The position numbers were made by a program, and so were the translations under genes. A stretch of 64,000 nucleotides of DNA, taken from Methylorubrum salsuginis. GTDB lineage: Bacteria; Pseudomonadota; Alphaproteobacteria; Rhizobiales; Beijerinckiaceae. Numbering within the stretch: position 1 is the first letter of the stretch; each line of letters begins with the position of its first letter. The stretch covers positions 62,001 through 126,000 of the forward strand of contig NZ_FOSV01000005.1 of assembly GCF_900114375.1 (NCBI RefSeq). The letters are read 5' to 3'. Positions 21,311 through 43,631 of the stretch are shown one piece after another. The notes under the pieces are model-generated. The model was not told the DNA's origin. It ran no database searches and worked only from the letters and a program-made list of their open reading frames with translations.

Positions 21311-21386
21311 GCGCCCTTCGTCTAGCGGTCCAGGACGTCGCCCTTTCACGGCGAAAACACGGGTTCGATTCCCGTAGGGCGCGCCA
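21311..21386 (+). tRNA. tRNA-Glu (TTC anticodon), integration site of the 22-kb element
   Basis: The 76-nt cloverleaf includes an encoded CCA. The acceptor GCGCCCT pairs with AGGGCGC, the anticodon stem GTCGC/GGCGA encloses CCTTTCACG with anticodon TTC, and the T-loop is GGTTCGATTCC. Its 3' 50 bases recur perfectly at 43582-43631, so this intact gene is also attL of the integrated element. Confidence 0.96.
21337..21386 (+). repeat. attL: 3' part of tRNA-Glu, 50-bp direct repeat
   Basis: These 50 bases (anticodon arm to CCA) are identical to 43582-43631. Identity stops immediately on both sides (c versus t to the left, c versus g to the right). The copy here keeps the tRNA intact. Confidence 0.95.
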
Positions 21387-22170: not shown

Positions 22171-22275
22171 CCCCTGAACGCGAAAACGGCGGTTCGCTCC
22201 CACCAGAGCGACCGCCGTTTCCGTCTCGTTCCATTGCCACGCGCCCTGCCAGGGGCGCCCAGCGGAATCTCTCAG

Positions 22276-26028: not shown

Positions 26029-26160
26029 CGTTCCGCTAGGGCCTGCTCTAACGGAACGTTCCATCGACCAATCGAGGCGGTTCCGCATGAATGGTATTGC
26101 AATTTGGAACGGAAGCTGGTTCTATGTCTAAGAACCTAACGGAACGCTCTGTCCGGAACG
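26029..26160. promoter_or_regulatory. Cluster of CGGAACG/CGTTCCG half-sites: candidate resolvase site
   Basis: Seven near-identical hexamers lie at 26029-26035, 26052-26058, 26057-26062, 26079-26086, 26106-26112, 26140-26146 and 26154-26160. They include a palindrome GGAACGTTCC (26053-26062) and a direct 11-bp repeat CTAACGGAACG at 26048 and 26136. The cluster surrounds the start of the serine recombinase gene, the usual position for a res site and autoregulation. Confidence 0.5.
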
Positions 26161-26729
26161 CCCCCATGCTCATTGGTTACGCGCGCACCTCGACCCTTGA
26201 GCAGGAAGCTGGCTTCGAGGCGCAGCTTCGCGAGCTGACGGCACATGGATGCGAGAAACTGTTCCGGGAGCAGGTCTCGTCCGTGGCCCCTCGCAAGCAG
26301 CTTGAGGCCGCCCTGGAGTTCGCCCGCGAAGGTGACGCGCTCGTGGTCACGAAGCTGGACCGGCTGGCCCGCAGCGTCGTCCACCTGGGCCAGATCATCG
26401 GGACGCTGGAGGCCAAGGGCGTCACCCTGCGCATCCTGAACCTGGGCGTGGACACCGCGACGCCCACCGGCAAGCTGATGCTCAACGTGCTCGGCGGCGT
26501 GGCGCAGTTCGAGCGGGAGATGATGCTGGAGCGGCAGCGCGAGGGCATCGCCAAGGCCAAGGCGGAAGGCGCCTACAAGGGCCGCAAGCCCACCGTCCGG
26601 GCTCGATCGGAAGAGATCAGGGCGCTCGCCGCGGAGGGGCTCAGCATGGGCGCCATCGCGACGAAGCTTGGGATCGGCAAGGGGTCCGTCCATCGCGTGC
26701 TCAATCCGGCGATGCCAGTGCGCACCTGA
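26124..26729 (+). CDS. Serine recombinase (resolvase/invertase family)
   Basis: This 201-residue protein has the resolvase catalytic domain: MLIGYARTSTLEQ with the nucleophile Ser, VVTKLDRLARSV, ATPTGKLMLNVLGGVAQFERE, then the MMLERQREGIAKAKAEGAYKGRKP hinge helix. A C-terminal helix-turn-helix (LSMGAIATKLGIGKGSVHRVL) follows. The ATG at 26124 has GGAAG eight bases upstream and adds 14 residues before the conserved start; the ATG at 26166 is an alternative. It may resolve multimers of the circular form or invert DNA. Repeated CGGAACG sites overlap its 5' end. Confidence 0.9.
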   Translation: MSKNLTERSVRNAPMLIGYARTSTLEQEAGFEAQLRELTAHGCEKLFREQVSSVAPRKQLEAALEFAREGDALVVTKLDRLARSVVHLGQIIGTLEAKGVTLRILNLGVDTATPTGKLMLNVLGGVAQFEREMMLERQREGIAKAKAEGAYKGRKPTVRARSEEIRALAAEGLSMGAIATKLGIGKGSVHRVLNPAMPVRT

Positions 26730-27337: not shown

Positions 27338-27586
27338 TCACTTTTCTCGGATGATCTGCTGCCAACACGCTAATAAACGTAGAGCTTGCTGCGCCGTCAT
27401 TTCGGAGGCGAAAAAAGAAAAGCACGTAGTGCTTGGATCTTCGCCCTCGGACTTTACGCTGACGCCTGACAGAGTTTCGCCGTCGGCCCCGTTTAGTTCC
27501 GAGTTAAATAGTCTGAGCCCCGCGGCCATGCTTGGCGGCTGCCGCCCGGATTTGGCGCGCCGAGATGCTGGAACGATAGCGTTCAT
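27338..27586 (-). CDS. Small protein of unknown function
   Basis: I do not recognise this 82-residue protein (MNAIVPASRRAKSGRQPPSM at the start, FFASEMTAQQALRLLACWQQ near the end). The ATG at 27586 has AGGAG eight bases upstream, which favours it over the longer frame. It is the first leftward gene of a regulatory region full of palindromes, so an early regulator is possible, but nothing in the sequence proves it. Confidence 0.55.
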   Translation of the reverse strand: MNAIVPASRRAKSGRQPPSMAAGLRLFNSELNGADGETLSGVSVKSEGEDPSTTCFSFFASEMTAQQALRLLACWQQIIREK

Positions 27587-28191
27587 GGGAAGTACTCCTG
27601 TCGCCCCGCGTTTCAGGCGGGAAGGTAAAGTCCAGGGCTGAAAGCGCCGCGACAGTCGGCCCTCTACGTCTTTAGGCATTGCCTTGGACATGCACGTAGA
27701 GACCCTGGACGATCGTCCAAAGCTATAGTCTCACCGGACACTATAGGAACGGCTGTCAGGCGGGCTTTCAAGCCTGCGCCTAGAAAATGATTGCGCCTTG
27801 CAAGGCTGTCAACCGGGCAAATAAAATAAATTTCCGTCCAAAATACAGGACATTCCGTCTGTTTTGCTTGAAAATATCAGACGGAAATCAGACAAATCAG
27901 ACGCCGCAGCTCGATGGCCATTCGCATCAACTGCTCGCCAGGGTGGGGTGCCCAGGCCCCGGGTATACCCCGATCGCACTGCCGAAACCCGCGGCCGGTG
28001 CGCGTACAAAAATTCTGCCTGAAAATCGAAACGGACAACTTGTCCGATGAAAACCTGCCATACGCGAACAAATCGGACAGGTTGTCCGACAACATGCACA
28101 AGACCGCATCGCATTTTTATTGCTTTGGTGCAGTTGATGCGAGTGCAATTCCGCCATATACTCACGCGGGCGCCGCGCGCGAGACTTGAGC
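27587..28191. other. Palindrome-rich divergent control region without genes
   Basis: About 600 bp separate a leftward and a rightward gene. It is AT-richer than the flanks and contains TGGACGATCGTCCA (27706-27719), CTATAGT-N10-ACTATAG (27723-27746), TTCCGTCTG-N16-CAGACGGAA (27853-27886), and two related operators at 28032-28046 and 28074-28088. No protein gene is convincing. It looks like a regulatory switch or second origin. Confidence 0.6.
28032..28088. promoter_or_regulatory. Pair of 15-bp palindromic operators
   Basis: CGGACAACTTGTCCG (28032-28046, perfect) and CGGACAGGTTGTCCG (28074-28088, one mismatch) are spaced 42 bp start to start, four helical turns. They lie about 100 bp upstream of the phage-like gene at 28192. 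A dimeric repressor could bind both cooperatively. Confidence 0.6.
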
Positions 28192-29178
28192 ATGTCCAAA
28201 ACGATAGACCCGCCGATCTTCGTCTACCTCATCCCGTCTCTGATGGGGTTTCTCGAAAGGGCCACCGCGGCGAATGAGCCTCGACAGTTCACCTTCGACC
28301 TCATCAGCGCCATCGACGAGCTGCTCCTCTACTTCAAGCCTGGGCGCTCATACCAACTCAGCGAACAGGATCGCCGCCTGCTGCGCTCCTTGACGCTGCA
28401 GGCGTTTCAGATCGGACGCTCGATGCAGCTCGCCGGCTGCGATGCGACCGTGCTTGAGTTGGGTCTGCGCGCCTTGGGCGGCCTCGTCGATATCCTCGCT
28501 CTGCCCGAAGAAGAACGAGACGGTCAGCAGGCGCGCGAACGCGCGTTCATTCGGACACTCAGGCGTCTCCGACACGTCGTCTATGGGGCACAACTCGCCA
28601 TCGACGAGGAGCAATTCGACGCGGACGTTGAACTGCCCCCGCTCTCGGACCAGGGCCACCATGCCGGCCCCCAGGCCGCCGTCCTCCCCTTCCGGCAGGA
28701 GACGCCGGCAGCCGTCGAGCGGCAGAAGGCGCGCGGGTCGCAAGAGGCCGCTGCCCTGTGGAAGCGCGCCGAGGACTATTTCCGTGCCGCCGACAATCTC
28801 GACGACCCGGCCACGCCCTACGCCACCGCCCTGCGCCTGCTCTCCGAGGGCCTCGCCGCGGGCTACCAGCTGTCGATCGAAAGCCGGGTGAGAATCGGGA
28901 TTGCGATGCTCGGCGCGCGCGGCGCCATCGGCCGCGTCTTCGTCCCGGACATCCTGCCCGCGGCCGAATTCGAGATGTTGCGCGCTCGCGCACATCACAT
29001 CCTCGACGCCCTGGAGACGGATACCACCGTCCGCGCCCAGGCCGAGCCCGAGTGGATCGCCGGCATCTGCGCCGAGGCGAGCCTGCACGCCAACGTCATC
29101 GCCAACGTGGCTCACATGCGCACGTACCAGACCGCCGAGCTGTCGGCGCGTCGCTACTTCGCTCAGCAGGCCGGATAG
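28192..29178 (+). CDS. Hypothetical protein, first gene of phage-like operon
   Basis: I do not recognise this 328-residue, largely helical protein. It starts SKTIDPPIFVYLIPSLMGFL and has no signal peptide or clear enzyme motif. A flexible Pro/Gln/Ala-rich stretch sits near residues 150-180. It is followed after nine bases by a phage-like gene and then by a large ejection-like protein, so it may be a virion or regulatory component. The upstream palindromic operators suggest repression of the operon. The ATG at 28192 is used; an in-frame TTG lies two codons upstream. Confidence 0.55.
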   Translation: MSKTIDPPIFVYLIPSLMGFLERATAANEPRQFTFDLISAIDELLLYFKPGRSYQLSEQDRRLLRSLTLQAFQIGRSMQLAGCDATVLELGLRALGGLVDILALPEEERDGQQARERAFIRTLRRLRHVVYGAQLAIDEEQFDADVELPPLSDQGHHAGPQAAVLPFRQETPAAVERQKARGSQEAAALWKRAEDYFRAADNLDDPATPYATALRLLSEGLAAGYQLSIESRVRIGIAMLGARGAIGRVFVPDILPAAEFEMLRARAHHILDALETDTTVRAQAEPEWIAGICAEASLHANVIANVAHMRTYQTAELSARRYFAQQAG

Positions 29179-29187
29179 GAACCGCCC

Positions 29188-30651
29188 ATGCCCCGCACTC
29201 GCACGGCCCTGATCGACCCGACGCAGCTCCGCGAGGGCTTCAGCAACCTCGCCCAGGCCTTCGCCCCGCCGTCGGCGCAGGAGCTGCTGGCGGGGTCGAA
29301 GATCCGCGAGACCAACCAGCGTGTGGCGCAGATCGCCGACCTCTACGCGATGGCGGGCGATCCGAACGTCAACGGGACCGTCCTCGCCAACAAGGCCGGG
29401 ATCGCCGGCGCCTTCAACCCGAGCCAGAGCCTGGAGGCCGTCGACCGCAACAACCGCACGTCGGTCTTCAACAACGCCGCCGACAACACCCGCGCGCTGC
29501 AGCAGACGCGGATGCAGCAGGACGGCGAGCTGACGCGCGCCATGCTGGCGCCGCTCGGCACGGGCCAGACCCGCATCGTGCCGGGCTCGATCGCATCGGC
29601 CTTCGGCGTGCCCGAGCGCCAGACCGGCATCGTCTCCCTGAACCAGGGTGATCGGGCCTTCCTGCCGGACGGCCGCACCCTCGACGGCGCCCCCAAGCCG
29701 ATGTCCGACGACCAGCTCAAGGCCTCGATCATCGCCGGGCTGCCGCAGGCCGAACAGCGGGCCTACGCGCTGGGCGGAACGCCCGTCGAGAACGTCGTCA
29801 CGCCCAACGGCCCTCGCGTGGCCTTCCGCGCCGACGCCGTCGGGCAGGAGCCGATGGCGCCGCAGGCCGCGCCGACCAACCTCGCCCGCCTCCAGGCCGA
29901 GCGCGCCGCGCTGCCGCCGGGCGATCTGCGCGCCGCCGAATACGACGCGGCCATTGCCGCGGAGGGCCGTGGTGTCACCGCCGACCCGTACCGCAACACC
30001 ACGGAACAGGAACTCGCCAAGCGCCACGCCGAGATCGTGAAGGTCGGCAGCGGCGCTGCGGCGATGTCCGGCAATCTCGACCGCCTCGAAACCTTGCTCG
30101 CCGCCGTTCCGACCGGCGCGCTGGCCGAGCGCAAGGCACAGCTTGCGGGCTATGCCAGCGACCTCGGCCTGACCGACGTCGCCGCGGCCCTGACGGGCGG
30201 CAAGCTCGATCAGATCCAGGCCGTCGAGGCGATCGTTCAGCGCCTCGCCCCGGGCCTGCGCACGCCCGGCTCTGGCGCGCAGTCCGACCGCGAGTTGCAG
30301 AACTTCCTTCGCAGCCTGCCGTCGCTGCGCAACACGCCCGGCGGCAATCGGATCATCATCGACACGCTGCGCGCCGCCGCGGGGCAGCAGGCTCAGGCCG
30401 CGGACCTCGCGCGGCAGGCGCAGGCCGGGACGCTCGACAAGTTCGAGGCCGAGCGCCGCATCGCGGCGCTGCAGTCGCCCTTCGCGCGGTTCGGTTCGGG
30501 CGACGGGCCGACCGCACAGCCCGCACCCTCCCCTGCGCCGGGGGGAGGGACGGCCGAGCCGGTTGCGGTGTCGACGCCGGAGGAAGCGCGGCGTCTGCCG
30601 TCGGGCACGCCGATTCGCCTGCCCGACGGTACGGTGGGAAGGGTGCCCTGA
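29188..30651 (+). CDS. Phage-like internal/ejection-type protein
   Basis: This 487-residue protein has no signal peptide. It is rich in Ala, Gln and Asn, and helical in its middle. The C-terminal sequence EARRLPSGTPIRLPDGTVGR resembles the tail end of many podophage internal or DNA-ejection proteins, which often finish with a P-S-G-T-x-[FI]-R-x-P-D-G motif. GGA precedes the ATG. One base separates its stop from the next gene, so the pair is co-transcribed. Function by analogy only. Confidence 0.55.
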   Translation: MPRTRTALIDPTQLREGFSNLAQAFAPPSAQELLAGSKIRETNQRVAQIADLYAMAGDPNVNGTVLANKAGIAGAFNPSQSLEAVDRNNRTSVFNNAADNTRALQQTRMQQDGELTRAMLAPLGTGQTRIVPGSIASAFGVPERQTGIVSLNQGDRAFLPDGRTLDGAPKPMSDDQLKASIIAGLPQAEQRAYALGGTPVENVVTPNGPRVAFRADAVGQEPMAPQAAPTNLARLQAERAALPPGDLRAAEYDAAIAAEGRGVTADPYRNTTEQELAKRHAEIVKVGSGAAAMSGNLDRLETLLAAVPTGALAERKAQLAGYASDLGLTDVAAALTGGKLDQIQAVEAIVQRLAPGLRTPGSGAQSDRELQNFLRSLPSLRNTPGGNRIIIDTLRAAAGQQAQAADLARQAQAGTLDKFEAERRIAALQSPFARFGSGDGPTAQPAPSPAPGGGTAEPVAVSTPEEARRLPSGTPIRLPDGTVGRVP

Positions 30652-30652
30652 C

Positions 30653-32722
30653 ATGGCCGACGCTTGGGCCGAATTTCGCGTTGCTCCGGCCAGCGCACCG
30701 CCCGCGCAGCAGGCCGACGAATGGGCCGCGTTCCGCACGACCGCAGCCGCGTCGGCCCCGCCCCCGCCGGTGCCCGCGGCGAAGCCGAGTGTGGCCGCTG
30801 ATGTCGCCAAGGCCTTGCCCACGGGCGTGGCGAAGGGCGCGATCGGCCTCGCCGGCTTGCCGGGCGACGTGCAGGAGATGGGCGGCAGCCTGATCGACCG
30901 CGGGATGCTCGCCGTCGGTCACATGGTCATGGATGCGACCGGGCTCGGCCCCCGGGCCGGAACGCCGGATCGAGAGGAGTTTGATCGGATGTATCTCGGC
31001 ATCGGCTCGGGCGGCGGGCTGCCCGGTTCCGGCGCCATCCGCCGCGGCGTCGAGACCGTCACCGGCCCGCTGTACGAACCGAAGACCGTGCCGGGCCAGT
31101 ACGCGCAGACGGTCGGAGAGTTCGCCCCCGGCGCGCTGATCGGACCCGGTGGTGTGGCGCGGCGCGCCGCTGAGACCGTCATCCCGGCCGTTCTGTCCGA
31201 GACGGCGGGCCAAGCCACGAAGGGCAGCGCGGCCGAGCCGTTCGCGCGGCTGGCCGGCGGTGTAGCCGGCAACCTCGGCACGGCTGCCACCGCGGCCAGG
31301 GCCGACGCGCCGGCGCGCGCTGTCATCGCCGCGACGCGCGGTACGACCGAAGTCGACCTTGCGGCGGCCCGCACGCTCGGCGAGACGGCGCAGCGCGTCG
31401 GCGTGCCGCTCACCGGCGCCGAGGCGATCCAGGGCGCCACGGGCAACGCCACCAAGCTGGGCGACCTGCAGCGGGCCGTGGAAGGCTCGCTCGACGGCGG
31501 CGCAATCCTCTCGCGGGTCTACGCCGAGCGGCCGCAGCAGATGCGCAGCGCCGCGGAACAGGCCCTCGACGCCATCGCAGCGCAGAGCGCGGCGCCCTCG
31601 ACGCTCGGCCCCCGGGCGGCCCGAGCCGCCGAAGCAGCCATCGAGGATCTGCGCCAGAGCATCAACCGGACGACCCGCGCCGACTACGCGGCGGCCGGCG
31701 CGCACAGGATGGACCCGGCCGACTTCGAGTTGATGGCCCAACCAGCATTCCGGGAAGTCCTGCGCCAGTTGCGCGCCGACCCGGTGCTCGGCCCGACCTA
31801 CCGCGATCTGCCCGACAGCTCGATCGCAGTCATCGACGCGGTGACGAAGGGGATGCGCGACCGCGGCGTCGCCCTCGGCAACCGGGCGAATCCGGGGTTC
31901 AGCTCGGAAGCCGCCGGCCTCTACGCCGGGGGCGCTGCCGAGGCGCGCGCCATCGCCCGCGATCCGGCGCGCGGCGGCTCCCAGGCCTACGACGACGCCC
32001 TCACCGCCCAGGCGCAGGCGCGGCGGCAGAACCTTGAGCCCCTGGAGCAGGGGCCGCTGGGACAGCTCGCCCAGGCCGGCGACACGGCAGCGGCAACGCA
32101 GGCCGTCCTGCCGTCGCGCCCGCACGTCGGCGGCGAGACCGAACTTGCCGACGCGGTGGCGCGGCTGCGGGCCCGCGATCCCGACCTGACGAACGAGTTG
32201 ATCCGGCAGCGGCTGGCCGATCAGTTCGATGCCAGCGCGACGCGGCTCGTGGGCGGCGAGGCCCAAGGCGGCGGGGCGCGCTTCGCCAAGGACATCGCCG
32301 GGACGGAGCAGCAAGCGCGCAACCTCGATGCAGTCCTGGAGGCGATCGAGCGGCCAGCGGCCCGAACGGCTGTGGCCGACGTGCTCGACGTGTTCCGCGC
32401 CACGGGCACCCGCAAGCCGCAGGGCAGCCCGACCGATCTGAATCAGCAGATTCGCGAGGCGGTGGGCGAGATGCCGTTGACCGCCCAGGCCACGACGGCG
32501 CTACGCACGGGCGGCGCCTCGTTGCTGACGCAGGCCGGCGACACGGCGCGGCGGGCGTGGCTCGGCCGGAACAACCACACGCTCGGTGAGCTGCTGACGG
32601 CGCCGAACAGCGTCGAGCAGATCGGGGCCATCCTGCAGCGGGGCGCCGCGACGCCCTTTGCAGACGCGGCTCTGCGTCAGGCGCTGCAGTCGCGCGGCGC
32701 CGACGTTGCGGCTTCGAGGTAG
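30653..32722 (+). CDS. Large phage ejection-like protein
   Basis: This 689-residue, Ala-rich helical protein begins ADAWAEFRVAPASAPPAQQA with a second WAAFR repeat, an opening common in podophage ejection proteins. A segment near residues 50-140 with Gly/Pro-rich motifs (AKGAIGLAGLPGDVQEMGG and GPLYEPKTVPGQYAQTVGEF) is also typical of that class. The rest is low-complexity helix with many Arg and Gln. In phages such proteins cross the host envelope with the genome. No capsid or portal gene accompanies it here. A GC-rich hairpin (32728-32745) follows the stop. Confidence 0.6.
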   Translation: MADAWAEFRVAPASAPPAQQADEWAAFRTTAAASAPPPPVPAAKPSVAADVAKALPTGVAKGAIGLAGLPGDVQEMGGSLIDRGMLAVGHMVMDATGLGPRAGTPDREEFDRMYLGIGSGGGLPGSGAIRRGVETVTGPLYEPKTVPGQYAQTVGEFAPGALIGPGGVARRAAETVIPAVLSETAGQATKGSAAEPFARLAGGVAGNLGTAATAARADAPARAVIAATRGTTEVDLAAARTLGETAQRVGVPLTGAEAIQGATGNATKLGDLQRAVEGSLDGGAILSRVYAERPQQMRSAAEQALDAIAAQSAAPSTLGPRAARAAEAAIEDLRQSINRTTRADYAAAGAHRMDPADFELMAQPAFREVLRQLRADPVLGPTYRDLPDSSIAVIDAVTKGMRDRGVALGNRANPGFSSEAAGLYAGGAAEARAIARDPARGGSQAYDDALTAQAQARRQNLEPLEQGPLGQLAQAGDTAAATQAVLPSRPHVGGETELADAVARLRARDPDLTNELIRQRLADQFDASATRLVGGEAQGGGARFAKDIAGTEQQARNLDAVLEAIERPAARTAVADVLDVFRATGTRKPQGSPTDLNQQIREAVGEMPLTAQATTALRTGGASLLTQAGDTARRAWLGRNNHTLGELLTAPNSVEQIGAILQRGAATPFADAALRQALQSRGADVAASR

Positions 32723-32727
32723 TGCGA

Positions 32728-32745
32728 CGCGCCGAACTCGGCGCG
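32728..32745 (+). terminator. Short GC hairpin after the ejection-like gene
   Basis: CGCGCCGA-AC-TCGGCGCG is a perfect 8-bp stem five bases past the stop codon. The two-base loop is tight and no T-run follows, so it is only a candidate terminator. The remaining ~265 bp up to the rhodopsin gene hold no gene I can support; a small palindrome CTGTGAACACAG is at 32911-32922. Confidence 0.35.
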
Positions 32746-33009
32746 CCGGCAACGATCTGCTGGCTGCGGGCATCTCTCTTGAGGCCGCCTGCCCCATGGG
32801 CGCGGCGGCGATGCCGGGGCCATTAGGCTACAGGCCTTGGGATAATGCTCCAGACGAGTTGGCTCCTCAGGCCCGAAGTCCTGCCCGCTCAGGGCGTCGT
32901 TCTCACGCGACTGTGAACACAGTCCTAGAAACATCCCTTCCCGGCCGAGATTGCCCGATGCGCCGCTACGTTCACTGCGCGCCTTTCATCCCAAAACGAC
33001 GAGAAATCG

Positions 33010-33762
33010 ATGACGCCTCAGTTCTGGCTCTGGCTGGGCTTCGCCGGCATGGCCGTGGGTGCCGCCGCCATCCTGGTCCTAGGTAAACGGCGGACCCATG
33101 CCGAGGAGGCGGACACGATCATCCACGGGATCGTGCCGATCATCGCCGCCTGCTCCTACTTCGCCATGGCGACGGGGCAGGGCAGCCTCACCCTACCGGC
33201 CGGGCCCGATGCGATGGAGGCCGCGCGCCAGTTCTACTTCGCCCGTTACATCGACTGGACCTTCACCACCCCCCTGCTGCTCGTCGGCCTCTCGCGCACC
33301 GCGATGCATTCGGGCCTGCGCCGCCCGGCGGTGGTGTGGGGTTTGATCGGCTCCGACCTGATCATGATCGTGACCGCTCTGGCCTTCGGCCTTTCGCAGG
33401 TCGCCTGGGTGAAGTGGACCTGGTTCGCCATCTCCTGCGGCGCGTTCGGGGCGGTGTTTTACGGCATCTTCGTGCAGTTGCGCGAGGAGAACGCGGCGGA
33501 GCGCGCCGACGTGCGCGCGGCCTTCCTGCGCAACGCCGTGTTCCTCACCGTGGTCTGGTGTGCCTATCCGGTGGTGCTACTCGTTGGGCAGGACGGCCTC
33601 GGAATCCTCTCGCCGGCCCTGGCCCTGGCGATCGTCGCTATGCTCGATCTCACCGCCAAGGTGGCCTACGGCCTGATGGCGACGATCCAGACGACCCGCG
33701 CCGTTGATCGCGATCTGGCCGAGACCCGCTCTTCCGCAACGCCGCTGCGCCGGGCGGCCTGA
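33010..33762 (+). CDS. Microbial (type I) rhodopsin, proton-pump-like with DTG motif
   Basis: This 250-residue, seven-helix protein is a retinal-binding rhodopsin. Helix C reads ARYIDWTFTTPLLLVGL: Arg79, counterion Asp82, Thr86 and Gly93 correspond to Arg82, Asp85, Thr89 and Asp96 of bacteriorhodopsin. The internal proton-donor position is therefore Gly. Helix F has WCAYPVVLLVG and helix G has MLDLTAKVAYG, giving Asp213 and the Schiff-base Lys217. The counterion pair fits an outward proton pump; loss of the donor predicts slow reprotonation or a different function. The stop overlaps the start of the Blh gene (TGATG). It sits inside the tRNA-Glu element between phage-like genes and an SOS cassette. 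Confidence 0.93.
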   Translation: MTPQFWLWLGFAGMAVGAAAILVLGKRRTHAEEADTIIHGIVPIIAACSYFAMATGQGSLTLPAGPDAMEAARQFYFARYIDWTFTTPLLLVGLSRTAMHSGLRRPAVVWGLIGSDLIMIVTALAFGLSQVAWVKWTWFAISCGAFGAVFYGIFVQLREENAAERADVRAAFLRNAVFLTVVWCAYPVVLLVGQDGLGILSPALALAIVAMLDLTAKVAYGLMATIQTTRAVDRDLAETRSSATPLRRAA

Positions 33763-34712
33763 TGGCCGGCGCGGCTCGCCCCCTTGCTCCGCCCCTCGGG
33801 GCGAGCCGCGCCCTCCCGGCAGCAGGGGCACGGCTCCCGGACTCGGCCAGGATCGTGGTCGCCGCCCTCGTTGGGCTCGGCCTGATTGCCTCGGCTCTCC
33901 TGCCGCGGGACGCGTCCTGGCTCACTGCGCTGGGGGCTGTGATCGTGCTCGGCGTCCCCCACGGGGCGCTCGACGGAGCGGTGGCCGTGCCCCTGCTGCG
34001 CCCGCGCTTCGGCCGTCTGTGGTTCGGCGTCTTCGCCCTGCCGTATCTCGGCCTGTCGGCGCTGGTGCTCATCGCATGGCAAGTCGCGCCACTGGCCACA
34101 TTGGCCGGCTTCCTGGCGCTGTCGGTCCTGCATTTCGGCGAGGAGGACGCGGGGCCGGGCCGGCCCGTCGAGGCGCTCGTGCGCGGCGGTCTGCCGATCG
34201 CGCTCCCGGCACTGCTGCGGCCCGAGGAGACCGCCGAAATCTTCGCGCTCGTCGCACGCGTGCCGATGCCACAGCTACCCGCGTGGTGGAGCGCCGCGGC
34301 TTGGCTCTGGCTCGCTCTGGCCACCCTCTGGCTCACCATTTACCGGCCGCGCCGCGCGCTGCTGGCCGAATGCGCGGGCCTTGCCGCCGCCTTCTGGCTG
34401 CTGCCGCCGCTCACCGCCTTCGCCCTGTACTTCGTCGGCCTGCACGGCCCCCGCCACATGCGCGCCCTGGTGCGCGATCCCGTGCGGGCACCCACCATCG
34501 ACACGATGGGCCGGGCCGTCCGCGCCGCGCTGCCGATCTTCGCCCTAACCCTCGGGCTCGGCGCCGGATTGTGGCCGCTCTACGCACCGGGCTCGCCCGA
34601 CCCGACGGCAACCCTCCTGGCGCTGACCCTGCAGATTCTGTCCGCGCTGACGCTGCCGCACGTACTGCTCGACCGCGTAGCATCATGCTGGCAGGGACCA
34701 TCTCCATCCTGA
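33762..34712 (+). CDS. blh: Brp/Blh-family beta-carotene 15,15'-dioxygenase (retinal synthesis)
   Basis: This 316-residue membrane protein cleaves beta-carotene to two retinals, the chromophore of the rhodopsin encoded immediately upstream. Conserved histidine motifs are visible: VPHGALDGA near residue 66, SVLHFGEEDA near 125, GLHGPRHMRA near 225, and LPHVLLDRVA near the C-terminus. These are the iron ligands expected for the family. Several hydrophobic helices span the protein. It overlaps the rhodopsin stop by one base, so the two form a translationally coupled light-harvesting unit. Carotenoid synthesis genes are not in the window and must be supplied by the host. Confidence 0.9.
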   Translation: MAGAARPLAPPLGASRALPAAGARLPDSARIVVAALVGLGLIASALLPRDASWLTALGAVIVLGVPHGALDGAVAVPLLRPRFGRLWFGVFALPYLGLSALVLIAWQVAPLATLAGFLALSVLHFGEEDAGPGRPVEALVRGGLPIALPALLRPEETAEIFALVARVPMPQLPAWWSAAAWLWLALATLWLTIYRPRRALLAECAGLAAAFWLLPPLTAFALYFVGLHGPRHMRALVRDPVRAPTIDTMGRAVRAALPIFALTLGLGAGLWPLYAPGSPDPTATLLALTLQILSALTLPHVLLDRVASCWQGPSPS

Positions 34713-34749
34713 ACCTGTAGTTATGCGCCGACGCGGCGGACGGCTCCCA

Positions 34750-35010
34750 TCATCGGCCCCTTTGCGTACTCGTGCTGTCGAAGCGCACTTCAATGAACGG
34801 ACGCGTCAGCGCCCGCCGGCCCCGCGCATCGTGGACATCGACCAGCCAACCCGACCAATCGGTGTCCGGCGCCCCATCCATGAGCGTCCGCGCGACGCGA
34901 TCAGCTTGCGGGCCGAGCGCCTGCAGTCGCGGAACCCACCGGCCGGTCAGGTCGAAGACGGCATCGCCACCACAGCCGACGCAATGGAAGTGGTAACGCT
35001 GGACCGTCAC
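34750..35010 (-). CDS. DUF6894-like small protein
   Basis: This 86-residue protein resembles the DUF6894 family common in Rhizobiales: a start of the form RYHFHC, a central helix, and an end like WSGWLVDVHDARGRRALTRPF. The central part has two cysteines (CVGCGG) in place of the usual acidic stretch. I chose the GTG at 35010, which has GGAG upstream and matches the family start; a longer frame exists. It is divergent from the SOS-boxed operon and could share its control region. Function unknown. Confidence 0.6.
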   Translation of the reverse strand: MTVQRYHFHCVGCGGDAVFDLTGRWVPRLQALGPQADRVARTLMDGAPDTDWSGWLVDVHDARGRRALTRPFIEVRFDSTSTQRGR

Positions 35011-35098
35011 TGCGCTTTTCGCTCCGGGTTCACAGCGCTCCCCACACCATTTCGGCCCGGCTCCGATCGCCGTTGAACCGGGTCCGTGCATCGGGTTT

Positions 35099-35113
35099 GT
35101 TCCTGTTACGTTC
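35099..35113. promoter_or_regulatory. LexA (SOS) box of the alphaproteobacterial type
   Basis: GTTC-CTGTTAC-GTTC matches exactly the GTTC-N7-GTTC direct repeat recognised by alphaproteobacterial LexA. It lies 20 bp upstream of the first ATG of the umuDC-like operon, so DNA damage should induce that operon. Confidence 0.85.
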
Positions 35114-35132
35114 TACAAGATTCGGAGGCTCG

Positions 35133-35381
35133 ATGCACGCGATCAGCGGGCGCAGGACGATGCTGCGCGACGATCTGACGACCGGCCAAGATGCGCGGCG
35201 CGCCGAGGCCGAAGCTCTCGCGCAGGCCTATCGAACCGCACACCGCGGGGACGATCAGGCCGCACTCGTCGCGGCGATCAGCGATGCCCTGGCCGACCTC
35301 GACGCCACTGAAGAGCGCGCAGCGGCGACCCGGCGCGCAGTCTCTCATGGCTTCGTGCGCGGTCGGATTGGCGCACCATGA
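35133..35381 (+). CDS. Small protein heading the SOS operon
   Basis: This 82-residue protein of unknown function is helical and charged (RRAEAEALAQAYRTAHRGDD; ALADLDATEERAAATRRAVS). GGAGG lies just upstream of the ATG, and the LexA box is 20 bp away. Its stop overlaps the umuD-like start (ATGA). It may be a small regulator or partner of the mutagenic polymerase, which is inference from position only. Confidence 0.65.
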   Translation: MHAISGRRTMLRDDLTTGQDARRAEAEALAQAYRTAHRGDDQAALVAAISDALADLDATEERAAATRRAVSHGFVRGRIGAP

Positions 35382-35842
35382 GCGCCGCGGGCCTTTTTCG
35401 CGTCGAAGAACTGCCCGCCGATGGAACCGGCACGGTGCGCGTGCCCGTGATGGGCCAAGCACTTTGCGCCGGCTTCCCGTCCCCGGCCGACGATTTCCAG
35501 GAGCAGGCGATCGAGCTGCCGCGCTGGCTCGTGCCGAACCCGCCCGCCACCTTCCTCTGGCGCATCGCCGGCTTCAGCATGCGCGATGCCGGCATCCACG
35601 ACGGTGATCTTGCCTGCGTCGATCGCAGCCTCGCGCCGGGCCACGGCAGCATCGTCGTGGCGGCCGTCGATGGTGAGATGTCGATCAAGCGCATGGTGGT
35701 CGAGGGCAACCGCACGCGCCTCGCCTTCGACAACGCCGATCTGCCCGTCTACGCGCTGCAGGAACTCGCCGAGGCCGCGATCTGGGGCGTGGTGCGCTTC
35801 ACCATCCGTTGGCATTTGGCCAAGGCTGGGCTGCCCCGGTGA
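35378..35842 (+). CDS. umuD: UmuD-like self-cleaving SOS protein
   Basis: This 154-residue protein is a LexA/UmuD-type S24 peptidase. The cleavage site is LCAGFPSP, with Ala31-Gly32. The catalytic dyad is Ser67 ([10 protein letters not shown]) and Lys104 (MSIKRM), with the same 37-residue spacing as in E. coli UmuD. The motif has Phe where GDSM is usual. RecA-stimulated trimming would activate it as partner of the UmuC polymerase. It overlaps both neighbours (ATGA and GTGA), so all three are coupled. Confidence 0.92.
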
Positions 35843-37170
35843 GCGGGCCCGCGGCACGGCTGCGCGACCGGATCGGCGGCGGGCGCGCCATCGCCCTCAT
35901 CGACGGCAACTCGTTCTACTGCTCGTGCGAGCGGGTGTTCGATCCCAAGCTCGCCCGCGTGCCGGTGATCGTGCTGAGCAACAACGATGGATGCGCCATC
36001 GCCCGCACGGCCGAAGCCAAGGCGCTCGGGATCAAGATGGGTGCGCCCTACTTCATGATCCGCGAGATGTGCCAGCGCCAAGGCGTGCGCGTGTTCTCGT
36101 CGAACTACACCCTCTATGGGGATATGAGTGCGCGCATCAACGCGATCTACCGCGACGCCACGCCCGAGGTCGAGGTCTACTCGATCGACGAGAGCTTCCT
36201 CGATCTCACCGCCTTCACCCGGCGCGACCGTGTCGCGCTCGCCCGCGACATCCGCGCGACGGTTCGGGCCTGGACCGGCATCCCGACCTGTGTCGGGCTG
36301 GGGCCGACCAAGACGCTCGCCAAGCTCGCCAACCACATCGCCAAGACCGTGCCCGAACTCGACGGCGTGTGCGACCTGACCGATCCGGCGGCCTATGATC
36401 ACTGGCTCTGCCGCATCCATGTCGGCGAGCTGTGGGGCGTCGGCCGGGCCTCGCTGGCGAAGCTCGAGGCGCTCGGCGTCGACACGGTGGCGGACCTGCG
36501 CGACATCGATCCCCGGCCAGTGCGAAAAGCGCTCACCGTGGTGGGCGAGCGGATGATCCACGAGTTGCGCGGCGTGTCCTGCCTCGGGCTCGACCTCGTG
36601 CCGGCGCGCCGCAAGGGCTGCGCGGTGACCCGCTCGTTCTCCGGCCGGGTGACGGAGCGGGCCGAACTGGAGCAGGCGGTCGCCGCCCATGCGACACGTC
36701 TCGGCGAGAAGCTTCGGCGGGAGGGGCTGGCGACCTCCCACGTCACCGTCTTCTACCACACGAGCGAGCACGACCGCGGCGAGCCGATGCGCTCAATCTC
36801 GACGGTGGTGACGCTAACGGAGGCGACCAACGACACGCTGGCGCTGATCCCGGCGGCGCTGCACGGTGTGGCGCGCACATGGCGCGAGCAGGGCACCCCG
36901 CCCTGGCGCTACTCGAAGGCTGGCATCGTCACGACCGATCTCGTGCCGCTGGCGGGCTCGCAGCGGGCCTTGATCGGGCAGCTCGACCGCGAGCGTTCGG
37001 CGAGCCTGATGAGTGCGCTCGACGCCTGCAACGCGCGCTGGGGCCGGGGCGCCGTGGTGCCCGCGAGGGCCGGGCTGGAACGGCAGCGGCGCGGCTGGGC
37101 GACGAAGTTCGAGATGCGCACGCCCCGCTACACGACGCAGGTGGAGGAACTGCCGGTCGCGCACGCGTGA
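35839..37170 (+). CDS. umuC: UmuC-like Y-family DNA polymerase (translesion synthesis)
   Basis: This 443-residue protein has the Y-family palm: [21 protein letters not shown] with the first catalytic Asp, [12 protein letters not shown] with the Asp-Glu pair, and [20 protein letters not shown]. It also has the UmuC-type helix-hairpin-helix [19 protein letters not shown] and the C-terminal little finger. Start is GTG at 35839, overlapping the umuD stop. It would copy over damaged DNA after SOS induction and raise mutation rate. The upstream LexA box governs the operon. Confidence 0.95.
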
Positions 37171-37192
37171 CGGCTTCGTCTATGCTCGTGCC

Positions 37193-37837
37193 ATGTGCAA
37201 CCTCTACAGCCTGACGAAGAGCCAGGACGAGATCCGGCGCGCCTTCCGGATCGACGCCGACCGCACCGGCAACCTGCCGCCGCTGCCTGGCATCTTCCCG
37301 AACACCGCCGCGCCGATCGTCCAAGTCGCGGACGGACAGCGCGTGCTGTCGATGTACCGCTGGGGCATGCCCTCGCCGGCCTTCGCGCTGGAGGGCAAGC
37401 GCGTCGATCCGGGCATCACCAACGTGCGCAACACCGGCTCGCCGCACTGGCGTCGCTGGCTCGGGCCGGAGCACCGCTGCCTCGTGCCGCTGTCATCGTT
37501 CAGCGAGTTCAACAAGGCGGCCGGCGGCGACATCTGGTTCGCGCTCGGAGCGGATCGTCCGCTCGCCTGCTTCGCCGGGATCAGGACCGAGGCCTGGACC
37601 TCGGTGCGCAAGCTCAAGGATGGCGAGACAACGGACGACCTCTATGCCTTCCTGACCTGCCCGCCGAACGCCGAGGTGGGCGCGGTGCATCCGAAGGCGA
37701 TGCCTGTGATCCTGACGACGCAGGATGAGCGCGACGCGTGGCTGCGCGCGCCGTGGTCGGAGGCGAAGGCACTGCAGCGTCCGCTACCGGACGAATCGCT
37801 GATGGTGGTAGGGCGCGGAGCGAAGCACGACAGCTGA
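37193..37837 (+). CDS. SOS response-associated peptidase family protein (HMCES/YedK type)
   Basis: This 214-residue SRAP protein crosslinks to abasic sites in single-stranded DNA to shield them. The catalytic Cys2 is exposed by Met removal (MCNLYSLTK). Asn77-region [11 protein letters not shown] and the His motif [11 protein letters not shown] fit the family. The usual Glu-containing motif (GFYEW) appears as SSFSEFNK, still with Glu. It lies 22 bp downstream of umuC, so it probably belongs to the SOS operon. A strong hairpin overlaps its stop codon. Confidence 0.9.
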
Positions 37838-37871
37838 AGGTCCGGCAGCTGCCCGCAGCTGCCGGACCTTC
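37836..37871 (+). terminator. Strong hairpin at the end of the SOS operon
   Basis: A perfect 16-bp stem (GAAGGTCCGGCAGCTG and its complement) with a 4-base loop CCCG overlaps the stop codon of the SRAP gene. No T-run follows, but stem strength and position suggest transcription termination. Confidence 0.6.
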
Positions 37872-37929
37872 CAGACCGTAAGGGTGAGCGCTCTGCCGAG
37901 CCGCTCCCGGTCGCACTATTCATTCGAGG

Positions 37930-38181
37930 GCTACAACTCGCGCCCTGCGCCTCTCCTTCGCGTCGGTCGTCGGAGACCTCGGCCTCAACGACTCGACGAT
38001 CGGCGCAATGCTCGGCCATGCCGGCAGCACCGTCACCAGCCGCTACGTCCACCACCGCGACGCGGTGCTGATCGCCGCTGTCGATCGTGTGGTGGAGAGG
38101 GTCGCGGCTGTGCTGAACGTGGCAAGAGTCAGGTATGGAAAGCTCGACCGCTATTGGCTACCGAACCGCAGACGGCTCTAA
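37930..38181 (+). pseudogene. C-terminal fragment of a tyrosine integrase
   Basis: The frame from 37930 reads ATTRALRLSFASVVGDLG, TIGAMLGHAGSTVTSRYVHH and so on to a stop at 38179. That is the C-terminal catalytic part of a phage-type integrase, with the box II Arg, the GH pair and the nucleophile Tyr in SRYVHH. Only about 83 residues remain and there is no start, so it is a relic. It is distinct from the two intact integrases in the window. It overlaps the end of the opposing darG gene by four bases. Confidence 0.75.
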
Positions 38182-39257
38182 CTTGCCCGAGGCTCTTTGT
38201 GGCTGGATAGACGCTCTACCGCTAGTCTTACCACGCGCTCGTCAAATATCCGCGCCTTGCGCGCAGCAGACCCAGATCCTCCCGGCCAAGTTTTAATACC
38301 GTGCATAATCGCCTCAACTTCAGGCCTAAATCCCCCTCTGTGCATGAGCCAATGCACCGTAGCGAGCAATTCCATTCCGTAAGGAGATTCAAAGCCATCT
38401 ATCAAGCTGGCCGTTGCCTCAAGAACATCTATATAATCTTTTCCTTCTGACTTGAGATAGGTGGCCACTCGATCTCGCTGGCTATCTTCAAAGCGAACAA
38501 TATCCAACGGACCTGCATCGGCCAACCGTTTCTCACAGTGCAGATAAGTGCCGTCTATGCCGTCTAGCAAATGTCTGAGGCGATCTGCGTAGGGGCCGTA
38601 CCTATGCGCCTTGAAGGCAAGCTTCAATGGATTCGAGATGGAAGCCATCTCAATCTCGGACTCTAACAAGTAAGCAAGCTTTTGCACTTCGAGCAAAGAG
38701 CACTCGAAGCCAAGCACTGCGTAACGGCGCACAAGCTCTACAACTAGAGCACGCGCCGGAGTCAAAGACTTTTTCCCGCTTCTCTTCGAAACATTTTGAT
38801 ACGCAGTCGTTGGCTCGTAAACGATTACCTCCACGTCGGGCAGGTTTCCAAGAGCAGCCTCAATGCGGGGTCGTACATCTTCCCAGTTTAAGCCACCATT
38901 TCCGCTTCCAAGCGGAGGGACCGCGATAGATCGAATGCCATGTGCTTCGATCACTCTGCGCAAGTCAGCCAAGCCCTCCTCGATCCAAATCATCTTGGAC
39001 GGGAAGCGCCAGTTAGCCTTGGTCGGGAAATTGATGATCCAGCGCGGGCCGGTTAGATGCCCGCGCTCGGTAACGAACATGCGGCCGGTCTGAACCTCGC
39101 CCGCCTTGCAGGCAGCCGCATATGCCCGGAAGTTCTCCGGGAAGTGCTCCTTGAACATCAGCGCGATGCCCTTGCCCATCACGCCCACGGTGTTCACCGT
39201 GTTAACCAACGCCTCCGCAGGAGCGTCGAGAAGGTCGCCCTGTGTGAAGGTGATCAT
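38178..39257 (-). CDS. darG: DarG antitoxin: macro-domain DNA ADP-ribosylglycohydrolase
   Basis: This 359-residue protein has an N-terminal macro domain (MITFTQGDLLDAPAEALVNTVN, GVMGKGIALMFKEHFP, AVPPLGSGNGGLNW), which removes ADP-ribose from DNA. A C-terminal helical domain (LLEVQKLAYLLESEIEM, AHRYGPYADRLRHLLDG) probably binds the toxin. The ATG at 39257 overlaps the darT stop (ATGA), the classical DarTG order with toxin first. This stretch is visibly lower in GC than its neighbours, a sign of separate acquisition. It neutralises DarT until phage infection or loss of the pair. Confidence 0.92.
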   Translation of the reverse strand: MITFTQGDLLDAPAEALVNTVNTVGVMGKGIALMFKEHFPENFRAYAAACKAGEVQTGRMFVTERGHLTGPRWIINFPTKANWRFPSKMIWIEEGLADLRRVIEAHGIRSIAVPPLGSGNGGLNWEDVRPRIEAALGNLPDVEVIVYEPTTAYQNVSKRSGKKSLTPARALVVELVRRYAVLGFECSLLEVQKLAYLLESEIEMASISNPLKLAFKAHRYGPYADRLRHLLDGIDGTYLHCEKRLADAGPLDIVRFEDSQRDRVATYLKSEGKDYIDVLEATASLIDGFESPYGMELLATVHWLMHRGGFRPEVEAIMHGIKTWPGGSGSAARKARIFDERVVRLAVERLSSHKEPRAS

Positions 39258-39898
39258 GAGAAATACCAACTCGGTAAGGTGCGCACCTTCAACGGTGTTC
39301 CCGATTTGTCCACATCTTTTTGCACGTCCGCCTTAATCCCGTCGCTGTGAACCGCAACCCCTAGCAGGCCGGTGAGGGGCACATGCCGGTGGATCAACGC
39401 TTCAGCTTGATAGCGCTCAACTCGTTCTGGATCGCGAGGATCCTTCTTGAAGTTTTTCGATCTTAAAATTTCCCAATCAATCTTGTTCAATCGTGTAGCG
39501 TCTCGATAAAATTTTGCGGTCGTTAAGTATGCATGTCGGTCAGTAAAAACGAAATCCAATCCTTGGTTGGCAACATGATATATACTTGACACAAATATAA
39601 GAATGTCATCGTTCGCGCGTTTAGTGATCCCGTTCCAGCCAGTCTTGATATTAAGTGCCATAGGTGAGTACGGCGTGAAATAGAACGGAACGTAATCGTT
39701 TAGCACCCCTCCCGGATTCAGGGGAACATCCCGGCTACCACGGCGGCCAATAAGGTCGAGATTGCCGATATTTACGTAGGCTGGGTCAGATCCGCTAGCG
39801 TTGCGTGCGAAAAGGCCGCGGGAAAGCACAGTACGCAGATTCTCCCGATGCACGATGCGGAAGATGTAGCCCTTCTCCTGGTTCAGAAACCCCGTCAT
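39254..39898 (-). CDS. darT: DarT toxin: DNA ADP-ribosyltransferase (DUF4433)
   Basis: This 214-residue toxin modifies single-stranded DNA by ADP-ribosylation from NAD+. Family features are the N-terminal YIFRIVHRENLRTVLSRGLF, the NAD-loop region GVLNDYVPFYFTPYSPMAL, the FTDRHAYLTTAKFY segment, and the catalytic Glu in VERYQAEALIHRHVPL. It is the first gene of the pair and its stop overlaps the darG start. DarTG systems are known to act as toxin-antitoxin and anti-phage modules; here it may stabilise the element or exclude phages. Confidence 0.93.
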   Translation of the reverse strand: MTGFLNQEKGYIFRIVHRENLRTVLSRGLFARNASGSDPAYVNIGNLDLIGRRGSRDVPLNPGGVLNDYVPFYFTPYSPMALNIKTGWNGITKRANDDILIFVSSIYHVANQGLDFVFTDRHAYLTTAKFYRDATRLNKIDWEILRSKNFKKDPRDPERVERYQAEALIHRHVPLTGLLGVAVHSDGIKADVQKDVDKSGTPLKVRTLPSWYFS

Positions 39899-42140: not shown

Positions 42141-43544
42141 CTAGGCCCCCACGCGCGCAGCCGCCGACCGGGCGAGCGGCACGACAGCCGAAGGCCCGAC
42201 CTCGAGATCGGGCGCCGTGCGGCGGATCGTGTCGGCGACGAAGCTCGGCGCGAGATGCGCATAGTGCTTCTCCGCCATGCGGGTGCCGGAGTGGCCGAGC
42301 GCCTCGGCGACGACGATCAGCGGCGCGCCGTTGCGCACCATGGCGCTGGCGTAGGAGTGGCGAAGCTCGTGCAGGCTGATGCTCTCGAGCTTCGCCCGCT
42401 CCAGCGCCGCCTTGAACCCGCGCTGGTACTGCGCAGGTTTCCACGGGTCGCCGTCGTCACGCCGCAGCAGCGGCTCCCGCGGTGCGCGGCCGGCGGAGAG
42501 GCGATCGAAAAGGGCCGCGCTGCCGGCGGTCAGCGGGACGTGGCGGGCCTTGCCGTTCTTGCTGCGCTCCACGAACACGGTGCCGTTGGTCCGGTCGAAG
42601 TCGCGCACCGTGAGGCGGGACAGCTCGCCGAATCGAGCGCCGGTCATCAGCGCCGCGGCGACCAGATCGCGCAGGGCGCCCTCCGAGGCGTTGAGCAGGC
42701 GCTGTTGCTCCGCGGCGTCGAGGAACCGGACGCGGGCCGCGCCTGTGTCCCGGAACGGCTTGAGCAGGCGCCACGCGCTATCGCTCTCAACGAGCTGGTG
42801 CTGGTAGGCCCAATTCAGCGCCGCCTTCAGCAGCGTCAGCGTCCGGTTGGCCGTGTCGCGCCGACGGCGCAGCGCCTCCGGGTCCGTCACATCGACAGCG
42901 CGGGTGTTCCGCTTCGTCGCCAAACGGGACGTGCGCACCAACTTGGGTGCCGTCACCATCGCGTCGCGCCAGCGCCGGAGCTTGTCGAGGGTCAGGTCGG
43001 CGACGCGCAGGGATCCAAGCTTTGGCAGGATGTGGGCCCGAGCCCGCGAGCGGGCGTCATAACCCGACTTCATCCCCTCGGCCTCGCGGGCTTCGAGGTA
43101 GCGTTCCAGCGCGTCGCCGACGGTCAGGGCAGGCTGTGCGTCCGGCGCCGAGCGCAGCGACTTCACCCACGCCCGCGCCGCGTCCTTGGCTTGCTCGTGC
43201 GTGAGGATCGATTCGCCATCCGCTGGCGAGACGTCATCGGCGCGGCCGAGCCGGATCTGCACCCGCTTGCCGGCGGGCGTGCGGGAAGCGGCCAGCCATG
43301 CGCCGCCCTGCCCTCTCGTGCCGCGTCCGGCCCGGTAGCCGAGCCGGACACCTGGGCTCAGCAGCTCCCACTCCGGCGCGTCGGATGCCGGGAGCTTCTC
43401 GCGGCTCGCCCGGCTCTTGAAGGCGCTCGCTCGACGGCCCAAAAGCCCCTCCCAATTCGTTGTCGAAATCGTTGCCTTGAATGCCATCGAATCGATTTTG
43501 ACGCAACGGAACGGAATAAGACAAGTTACTGTGTTATATGGCAT
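42141..43544 (-). CDS. Tyrosine-type site-specific integrase of the tRNA-Glu element
   Basis: This 467-residue integrase has an N-terminal arm-binding region, a core-binding domain (LTVGDALERYLEAREAEGMK) and the catalytic domain. Visible are Arg in MTGARFGELSRL, the HxxR pair in LHELRHSYASAM, His in LGHSGTRMAE and the nucleophile Tyr in EKHYAHL. Its start is 37 bp from attR. Two starts are possible: ATG at 43544 with AGGAG close upstream, or ATG at 43487, where the usual sequence begins. The 20-bp repeat shared with the attL end lies in its 5' coding sequence (43456-43475). Confidence 0.95.
   Translation of the reverse strand: MPYNTVTCLIPFRCVKIDSMAFKATISTTNWEGLLGRRASAFKSRASREKLPASDAPEWELLSPGVRLGYRAGRGTRGQGGAWLAASRTPAGKRVQIRLGRADDVSPADGESILTHEQAKDAARAWVKSLRSAPDAQPALTVGDALERYLEAREAEGMKSGYDARSRARAHILPKLGSLRVADLTLDKLRRWRDAMVTAPKLVRTSRLATKRNTRAVDVTDPEALRRRRDTANRTLTLLKAALNWAYQHQLVESDSAWRLLKPFRDTGAARVRFLDAAEQQRLLNASEGALRDLVAAALMTGARFGELSRLTVRDFDRTNGTVFVERSKNGKARHVPLTAGSAALFDRLSAGRAPREPLLRRDDGDPWKPAQYQRGFKAALERAKLESISLHELRHSYASAMVRNGAPLIVVAEALGHSGTRMAEKHYAHLAPSFVADTIRRTAPDLEVGPSAVVPLARSAAARVGA
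43456..43475 (+). repeat. Candidate integrase arm-type site, right copy
   Basis: TTCGTTGTCGAAATCGTTGC is identical to 21401-21420. It lies about 106 bp inside the attR core, within the integrase gene (encoding TISTTN on the minus strand). Confidence 0.6.
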
Positions 43545-43581
43545 TCACTCCTGTTCGAACGCGTTTGAGGCTGTCAATGAT

Positions 43582-43631
43582 GTCGCCCTTTCACGGCGAA
43601 AACACGGGTTCGATTCCCGTAGGGCGCGCCA
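43582..43631 (+). repeat. attR: 50-bp copy of the tRNA-Glu 3' part
   Basis: Identical to 21337-21386. Only the anticodon arm to the CCA end is present; the D-arm and 5' acceptor strand are missing, so it is not a working tRNA gene. Confidence 0.95.

Follow-up and report, generated by a model that had tools for sequence, protein, structure and literature searches.

A rhodopsin-blh pair in the cargo slot of a tRNA-Glu-integrated, phage-derived element and at many other locations in Methylobacterium genomes

Phage satellites (PICI and P4-like) are integrated at tRNA genes and combine an integrase and a primase/helicase-like protein with variable cargo that includes defence systems. The nearest precedent for the locus described here is the xanthorhodopsin operon of Tardiphaga, gained horizontally near tRNA genes (tRNA-Lys, and tRNA-Glu in a MAG) amid mobile elements (PMC7701988), and virus-borne type-1 rhodopsins have been described from giant viruses, which infect eukaryotes (PMC3500653, PMC7659345). 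Rhodopsins with a DTG motif are also known already, among them one from Methylobacterium, the MpR of Methylobacterium populi, which is a Li+/Na+ pump according to Cho et al. 2021 as told in PMC10154332. In the same source, E32, E33, and D35 mark most of the MpR-like clade, the DTG rhodopsins PspR and PaR are reported to pump protons and to carry a conserved His where bacteriorhodopsin has T46, and the reader is warned that the three-letter motif does not predict rhodopsin function.

The window analysed here is a stretch of 64,000 nucleotides from Methylorubrum salsuginis, in which a 22-kb element encloses a rhodopsin-blh pair. This element resembles the PICI and P4-like satellites in its tRNA integration, integrase, primase/helicase-like protein, and variable cargo with defence systems, and differs from them in that no packaging gene was recognised among the ORFs scanned and in carrying injection-like proteins. 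Horizontal gain near tRNA genes and the presence of mobile elements are shared with Tardiphaga, whereas the consulted parts of PMC7701988 describe neither a prophage cargo slot nor a multi-site cassette, both of which are seen with the cassette described here. The consulted parts of PMC10154332 likewise describe no mobile context for MpR; the window rhodopsin lies in the cargo slot of a phage-derived element.

The rhodopsin-blh pair and its motif

The pair and the region preceding it comprise the following features of the window:

32899..33009, plus strand: promoter-type region, conserved upstream of the cassette genes; relatives are homologous up to about -111
33010..33762, plus strand: DTG (MpR-like) rhodopsin gene; 250 aa, PF01036 E 1.5e-45, key residues invariant
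33762..34712, plus strand: Blh beta-carotene 15,15'-dioxygenase gene; 316 aa, PF15461 E 1.9e-45, 5 conserved His

An earlier note made from the letters alone had read a seven-helix rhodopsin with Asp82, Thr86, Gly93, and Lys217 overlapping a Blh gene. Both points are confirmed: the protein is a type-1 (microbial) rhodopsin by its PF01036 match, numbering gives E32, E33, D35, H39, R79, D82, T86, G93, D213, and K217, and the rhodopsin stop and blh start have one base in common (TGATG). K217, D82, and D213 are invariant in 36 of 36 rhodopsin rows, as are E32, E33, D35, and H39; position 93 is Gly in 34 rows (DTG) and Ala in 2, with the other key residues the same in all 36. The second protein belongs to the Blh/Brp beta-carotene dioxygenases, its five His being found in 40 of 40 rows. 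Values of dN/dS over 10 pairs are 0.06 to 0.20 for the rhodopsin and 0.13 to 0.41 for blh, and this purifying selection argues for the pair being in use.

The Gly at the proton-donor position, which the same note had put forward as a DTG-type peculiarity, is there, but it is not a novelty. The window rhodopsin and MpR have the same DTG motif and E32, E33, and D35 at the same numbering (residues as printed in PMC10154332); with a DTG/DTS motif, these three residues, and no His pair, the protein falls in the MpR-like DTG clade, which already carries DTG, so that the missing donor is a known trait. Rhodopsins of Pantoea and Sphingomonas plasmids, one of them with blh, are 35 to 37% identical to it. 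Judged from its residues, the window protein is most likely a light-driven cation pump of the MpR clade (Na+ and Li+ were reported for MpR). A possible reading, to which we give less weight, makes it an outward proton pump of the PspR/SpaR type (DTG/DTS) or a sensor, not a Na+/Li+ pump. PspR and PaR, the DTG rhodopsins reported as proton pumps, have their His for T46, and by eye H39 of the window protein falls at that place; the mirror proteorhodopsins (SpaR, PspR, PaR) also share with it a DTG/DTS motif without a carboxylate donor (PMC10154332). However, where that group has a conserved His pair on the cytoplasmic side, the window protein reads E-E-x-D, so that E32, E33, and D35 match the MpR clade and not the SpaR clade. 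A sensory role would suit the chemoreceptor genes near the pair at L053, on plasmid L177, and on a Pantoea plasmid, and the PAS/kinase genes at L037, L047, and L054, but such genes are never part of the shared cassette segment, which holds no transducer gene.

Several further rhodopsin genes and promoter-like sequences were observed in the genus. A second rhodopsin-blh type with Ser at the donor place (DTS) occurs at L065, L066, L067, and L068 (G056, G084, G034, and G066); having Gly or Ser as residue 33 and His as residue 35, this paralogue is nearer to the mirror-proteorhodopsin pattern, and three of the four genomes also possess the DTG pair. At about 53718 to 54403 of contig C134 in G080, two adjoining pieces of a further rhodopsin lie on opposite strands, perhaps a broken and inverted paralogue. 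Upstream of the rhodopsin at L054 to L059, GGAAC-N16/17-GTT-like sequences were seen by eye, which we take to resemble EcfG stress-sigma promoters; the conserved upstream motif of the window's clade differs from them.

The element and its cargo slot

The element around the pair contains the following features:

21311..21386, plus strand: tRNA-Glu(ttc) (ARAGORN); its 3' part, 21325-21386, is attL (direct repeat D1)
22234..24933, plus strand: DUF3987 helicase/primase-like protein; PF13148 9e-42, phrog_2373 DNA helicase 3.1e-19
26091..26729, plus strand: serine resolvase/invertase; PF00239 9.6e-40, phrog_125 7.6e-57
28192..29178, plus strand: p330, conserved element-family protein; about 60% aa identity in G014 and G038, dN/dS 0.27-0.34
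29188..30651, plus strand: p487, phage injection-protein-like; 42% over 43% of the query to RHph_N65, dN/dS 0.26-0.28 (G014, G038)
30563..32722, plus strand: p650, conserved phage-like protein; 40% over 87% to an RHph_N65 hypothetical protein
32699..34807, no strand: cargo slot; sister-element homology ends at 32698/32699/32703 and restarts at 34807/34808
35378..35842, plus strand: UmuD-like S24 peptidase; PF00717 2.1e-20
35809..37170, plus strand: UmuC-like Y-family polymerase; PF00817 2.2e-37
37193..37837, plus strand: SRAP domain protein; PF02586 1e-20, scored in a longer ORF (37013-37837); start set by the gene caller
38178..39269, minus strand: DarG-type macro-domain antitoxin; PF01661 6.2e-22
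39254..39898, minus strand: DarT ssDNA ADP-ribosyltransferase toxin; PF14487 1.5e-51
42141..43544, minus strand: tyrosine integrase adjoining attR; PF00589 3.9e-29
43570..43631, plus strand: attR, copy of the tRNA-Glu 3' end; 62 nt, 94% overall, last 50 nt identical

The pair does lie inside att repeats, as had been proposed, these being the tRNA-Glu and its 62-nt copy at the two ends of the element. With attL and attR taken from a tRNA 3' end and the integrase adjacent, this is a tRNA-integrated element (a plus-strand ORF overlying the integrase is without Pfam or PHROG match). The last 50 att nucleotides match the tRNA-Glu of G101 and G045, the 2 of the 15 genomes searched in which panE lies beside tRNA-Glu, and at their panE-tRNA-Glu junction none of the element was seen within 1.2 to 1.5 kb beyond. 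Both rpoBC trees put G101 closest to the genome of the window. Outside the element, in window 43632-47326, a 433-aa ORF (45860-47161) that is integrase-like by eye and without Pfam match adjoins a tRNA-Lys, perhaps as another small island.

Pfam recognises the SOS and DarTG modules that the earlier note placed beside the pair, namely UmuD, UmuC, SRAP, DarT, and the DarG-type macro domain. The phage-like genes that the note saw on the left fared unevenly: p330, p487, and p650 (28.2 to 32.7 kb) are without Pfam or PHROG match at E 0.01, while two of them, p487 and p650, resemble neighbouring parts of Rhizobium phage RHph_N65 that are annotated partly as "putative injection protein" (the features matched by p487 read "putative injection protein" and "hypothetical protein"). 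Capsid, terminase, and portal genes were not recognised among the element ORFs scanned with Pfam and PHROG; given this, and since no excision or transfer was seen, the element may be immobile.

A comparison of window 24900-38000 with 111 genus genomes found sister elements in at least four (G038, G014, G064, and G110), two of which (G038 and G110) begin at tRNA-Glu; among the matches listed, G060 has a more distant p650 match (70%). Homology to the window is interrupted between 32698 and 34808 in G014 (L163), where 3322 bp of other DNA intervene, and between 32699 and 34807 in G064 (L165), where 2403 bp do. The left edge alone is seen in G110 (L164), at window 32703. Homology thus stops and resumes at about the same edges around other DNA, which makes the rhodopsin pair the content of a cargo slot that measures about 2.1 kb and begins inside the last codons of p650. 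The cargo of G064 encodes a staphylococcal-nuclease-type protein and that of G110 a Hint-domain protein. In G038 the cargo starts earlier, at window 32294 inside p650, which is truncated there, and encodes the DUF3732 and CTD7 proteins of an ABC-three-component (ABC-3C) defence system. The genes to the left are under purifying selection, p650 (about 82% aa identity in the four sister elements) with dN/dS 0.18 to 0.23 over five genomes, and p487 and p330 with 0.26 to 0.34 over three (window, G014, and G038). The pair is therefore the occupant of a swappable slot (about 32,699 to 34,807) of a phage-derived element, in agreement with its description as cargo on a tRNA-integrated, phage-like element.

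Two other parts of the element also vary. The G014 element (L163 3262-5165) has an HD-domain gene and a second ORF where the window has DarTG (38178-39898), a replacement that suggests a second cargo slot. The UmuDC block (window 34795-37170) looks like a travelling module too, with copies of 89% elsewhere in the same genome (G000:C13, L168) and 87% in G101 (G101:C6, L167), and at L037 it lies beside the rhodopsin cassette in inverted orientation.

Other locations and history of the pair

A rhodopsin match was found in 40 of the 111 genus genomes, and 36 of the 40 stretches taken around these matches (up to 20 kb) match all or part of the window pair in DNA; the only other window matches of at least 150 nt in the 40 stretches are at L037 (UmuDC, inverted), L047, L049, L051, L055, and L068. 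The pair occupies 23 contexts among 36 genomes when at least two shared flanking proteins define a context (20 with at least one), a count that can be inflated by contig ends, which cut some loci and leave short flanks at L032, L034, L037, L041, L042, and L069. L051 was counted in the same context as L042, L048, and L049, though the cassette sits elsewhere in that neighbourhood. Left out of the context and tree counts were G077 and G078 (short loci only), G084 (DTS paralogue only), G110 (a 19-residue fragment at a contig end), and four paralogue loci; the split paralogue of G080 (C134) was not among the fetched loci. In 20 of these genomes, the rhodopsin lies in 14 contexts versus 5 for cyanase, which is a near-core gene (108 of 111 genomes) and not a matched accessory gene (loci up to 20 kb, three of them cut to 10 to 12 kb by contig ends). 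An initial control on cyanase, its flanks about 1.5 kb per side, which gave 14 contexts in 30 loci versus 24 in 36 for the rhodopsin (about 2 kb), was judged uninformative because 26 of the 30 loci had 0 to 2 flanking genes. A single conserved core locus of the pair was looked for and was not found, and the window element is only one of its vehicles. The suggestion that this element would be what moves light-driven pumping between methylotrophs is accordingly not supported as far as the main vehicle is concerned; the vehicle was rightly named, and the unit of mobility was taken too large.

Pairs of loci in different contexts share only 1.8 to 2.1 kb, without a recombinase. Counted from the rhodopsin start, L051 and L053 (G103 and G029) share -264 to +1788 (2.05 kb at 97%) between unrelated flanks, L032/L033 and L037/L033 share -272 to +1798 and -251 to +1810, respectively, with sharp ends and unrelated flanks, and the window and L031 share -111 to +1665. 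In one subclade, a 75-nt repeat lies at -325, -326, and +1773 to +1775, and it is found at -317 on a plasmid. A model of this repeat, built from cassette-edge copies and so favouring edge matches, gave 13 matches (E<=0.05) in 803 kb of rhodopsin loci, some of them away from the edges, and 4 in a 37-kb plasmid stretch, whereas cyanase loci (371 kb), rpoBC loci (429 kb), and arbitrary stretches of four genomes (398 kb) gave no match. The repeat is not seen next to the window cassette or next to most other copies, and is a candidate recombination site for the one subclade only. On the 40-kb plasmid (L177), the repeat stands in one orientation between genes at about 11662, 15538, 19016, and 19684, as if marking module borders. 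Conserved transposon ends were considered and rejected: by eye, the only sequence common to the regions upstream of the pair in 34 rows (the window among them) is a promoter-like stretch of about 110 nt, no terminal inverted repeats were seen, and among over-represented exact 11-mers in non-coding DNA no word pointed to the cassette edges.

Copies of the pair are also carried by a prophage and by plasmids. In Methylobacterium gossipiicola (G020), it lies in a block that begins at a tRNA-Leu with an adjacent integrase, flanked by replication/antiterminator genes and then by terminase, portal, protease, and major head protein; this set of genes at a tRNA identifies a tailed temperate phage, the block being cut by a contig end and no tail gene being identified in it. 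Where the pair lies in G020, about 4.6 kb is missing from related stretches of G081 and G048 (match positions only), which is what a variable cargo region would show. The G020 pair also occurs in an IMG/VR viral contig (30,594 bases), its coordinates there differing by no more than a few bases. Of the plasmid copies, one of 88% identity lies on a 40-kb plasmid of a Methylobacterium from an Arabidopsis leaf, with an IS91 transposase 0.4 kb after blh, and one of 78% on a 1.57-Mb plasmid of M. aquaticum. Rhodopsin and Blh found no match in 50,697 phage records, and short peptide patterns, which can miss distant rhodopsins, recovered only the M. gossipiicola record from 2.9 million viral contigs. 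A phage-borne bacterial rhodopsin was not found in the consulted portions of the open-licence literature on rhodopsin and prophage, which does not prove its absence; the giant virus rhodopsins (PMC3500653, PMC7659345) are virus-borne as well, but here the carrier is a tailed-phage prophage of a bacterium, with a linked blh.

These surroundings bear on whether the window element contributes to the spread of the cassette. It could be a decayed prophage remnant that adds nothing, the cassette having landed in it by chance and moving on its own through recombination, illegitimate or at repeats, with help from DNA uptake or plasmids. Forty neighbouring proteins at 22 rhodopsin loci would fit such independent movement: 29 have ordinary domains (including QueC, PEP carboxylase, HAD hydrolase, PBP, and permease), 10 are without match, 1 is a phage terminase (L043), and none is an integrase or transposase. 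So would the L049 context, which has a HAD hydrolase to the left and a protein of 274 aa to the right, and where about 1.9 kb is inserted at a site that is empty in G080, whose flanks are contiguous with a 52-bp gap and whose own cassette lies elsewhere. Against a mere remnant stand the purifying selection on the phage-like genes, the different cargo in the same slot of the sister elements, and the second copy in the prophage cargo region of M. gossipiicola, and we hold this explanation to be possible but not the better one. The account that we consider likely is that of a short mobile cassette (upstream region, DTG rhodopsin, and blh, about 1.8 to 2.1 kb, no recombinase) in the cargo slot of a tRNA-Glu-integrated, phage-derived element, with an MpR-type cation pump as its most likely product.

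The rho-blh tree (36 rows, 1680 columns) was compared with the rpoBC tree. The rho-blh data reject the rpoBC topology (AU test, p = 2.4e-114), and the reverse test of rpoBC data against the rho-blh topology also rejects (6.5e-56), which upholds the earlier claim of horizontal movement and rejects a tree of vertical descent. Near-identical pairs occur in distant species, G052 and G079 differing by 0.2% in rho-blh versus 8.0% in rpoBC. Vertical inheritance of an ancestral rhodopsin locus, dispersed through rearrangements of the genome, would account for the broad rhodopsin clades, which follow the species clades and indicate that part of the rhodopsin history is vertical. Set against the AU test, the G052/G079 pairs, the excess of contexts over the cyanase control, and the empty sites in relatives, such an origin is very improbable, and exchange of the cassette between lineages remains the favoured history.

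Retinal supply and what the cassette may mean

The cassette occupies the place between p650, the last phage-like gene, and the UmuDC block where related elements carry other cargo. In the mechanism we propose, the element would move by integrase-tRNA recombination and carry the cassette along, and the cassette itself may enter and leave its vehicles by recombination at its edges, for which the 75-nt edge repeat is a candidate site in one subclade. The ring-bearing carotenoid out of which Blh would make retinal may be supplied from outside the cell.

The supply of that carotenoid was examined through the lycopene cyclases. Since weak, mostly partial matches pass the PF05834 cut-off in 108 of 111 genomes, the cut-off alone was discarded and the scores were calibrated with a Pantoea plasmid, the CrtY of which reached 312.8 bits in the same test. 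All first-look candidates of the window's own genome gave at best 24.1 bits (40.2 with neighbours in frame) and those of G020 31.8 bits, and the best over the genus was 45.6 bits (111 genomes, best 15 candidates per genome). No genome of the 111 exceeded the TIGR01790 cut-off of 209.5 (best 31.8 bits, best 15 candidates per genome), and none matched PF18916. No CrtY- or CrtYcd-type lycopene cyclase was therefore recognised in the 111 genus genomes, the host included, and by the measure of a recognisable cyclase of these two types the pair in this host does not class as a self-sufficient phototrophy unit. The premise of the earlier note that such pairs need only host beta-carotene is thereby left unsupported, doubtful though not disproved. 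Methylobacterium strains are reported to make acyclic C30 diapocarotenoids in the parts consulted of a review (PMC9598406). Either an unrecognised cyclase (perhaps of the CruA type) is present or the ring comes from outside.

In a more far-reaching view, a self-contained cassette for light-driven ion pumping would be lysogeny cargo traded among the temperate phages and phage-derived elements of Methylobacterium, placed in the kind of slot that also takes defence systems, and the lysogens would use beta-carotene or retinal from outside (e.g., from the leaf) as the genus could not make a ringed carotenoid; we regard this as unlikely in its full form. The horizontal spread of rhodopsins has mostly been argued from trees, and here the vehicles are visible: the cargo slot of a phage-derived element, the cargo region of a prophage, plasmids, and many small-cassette insertions beside ordinary genes. 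Two questions become testable: the delivery of phototrophy genes to bacteria by phages, and the way in which a rhodopsin-blh pair under purifying selection functions when lycopene cyclases of the usual types go unrecognised throughout the genus.
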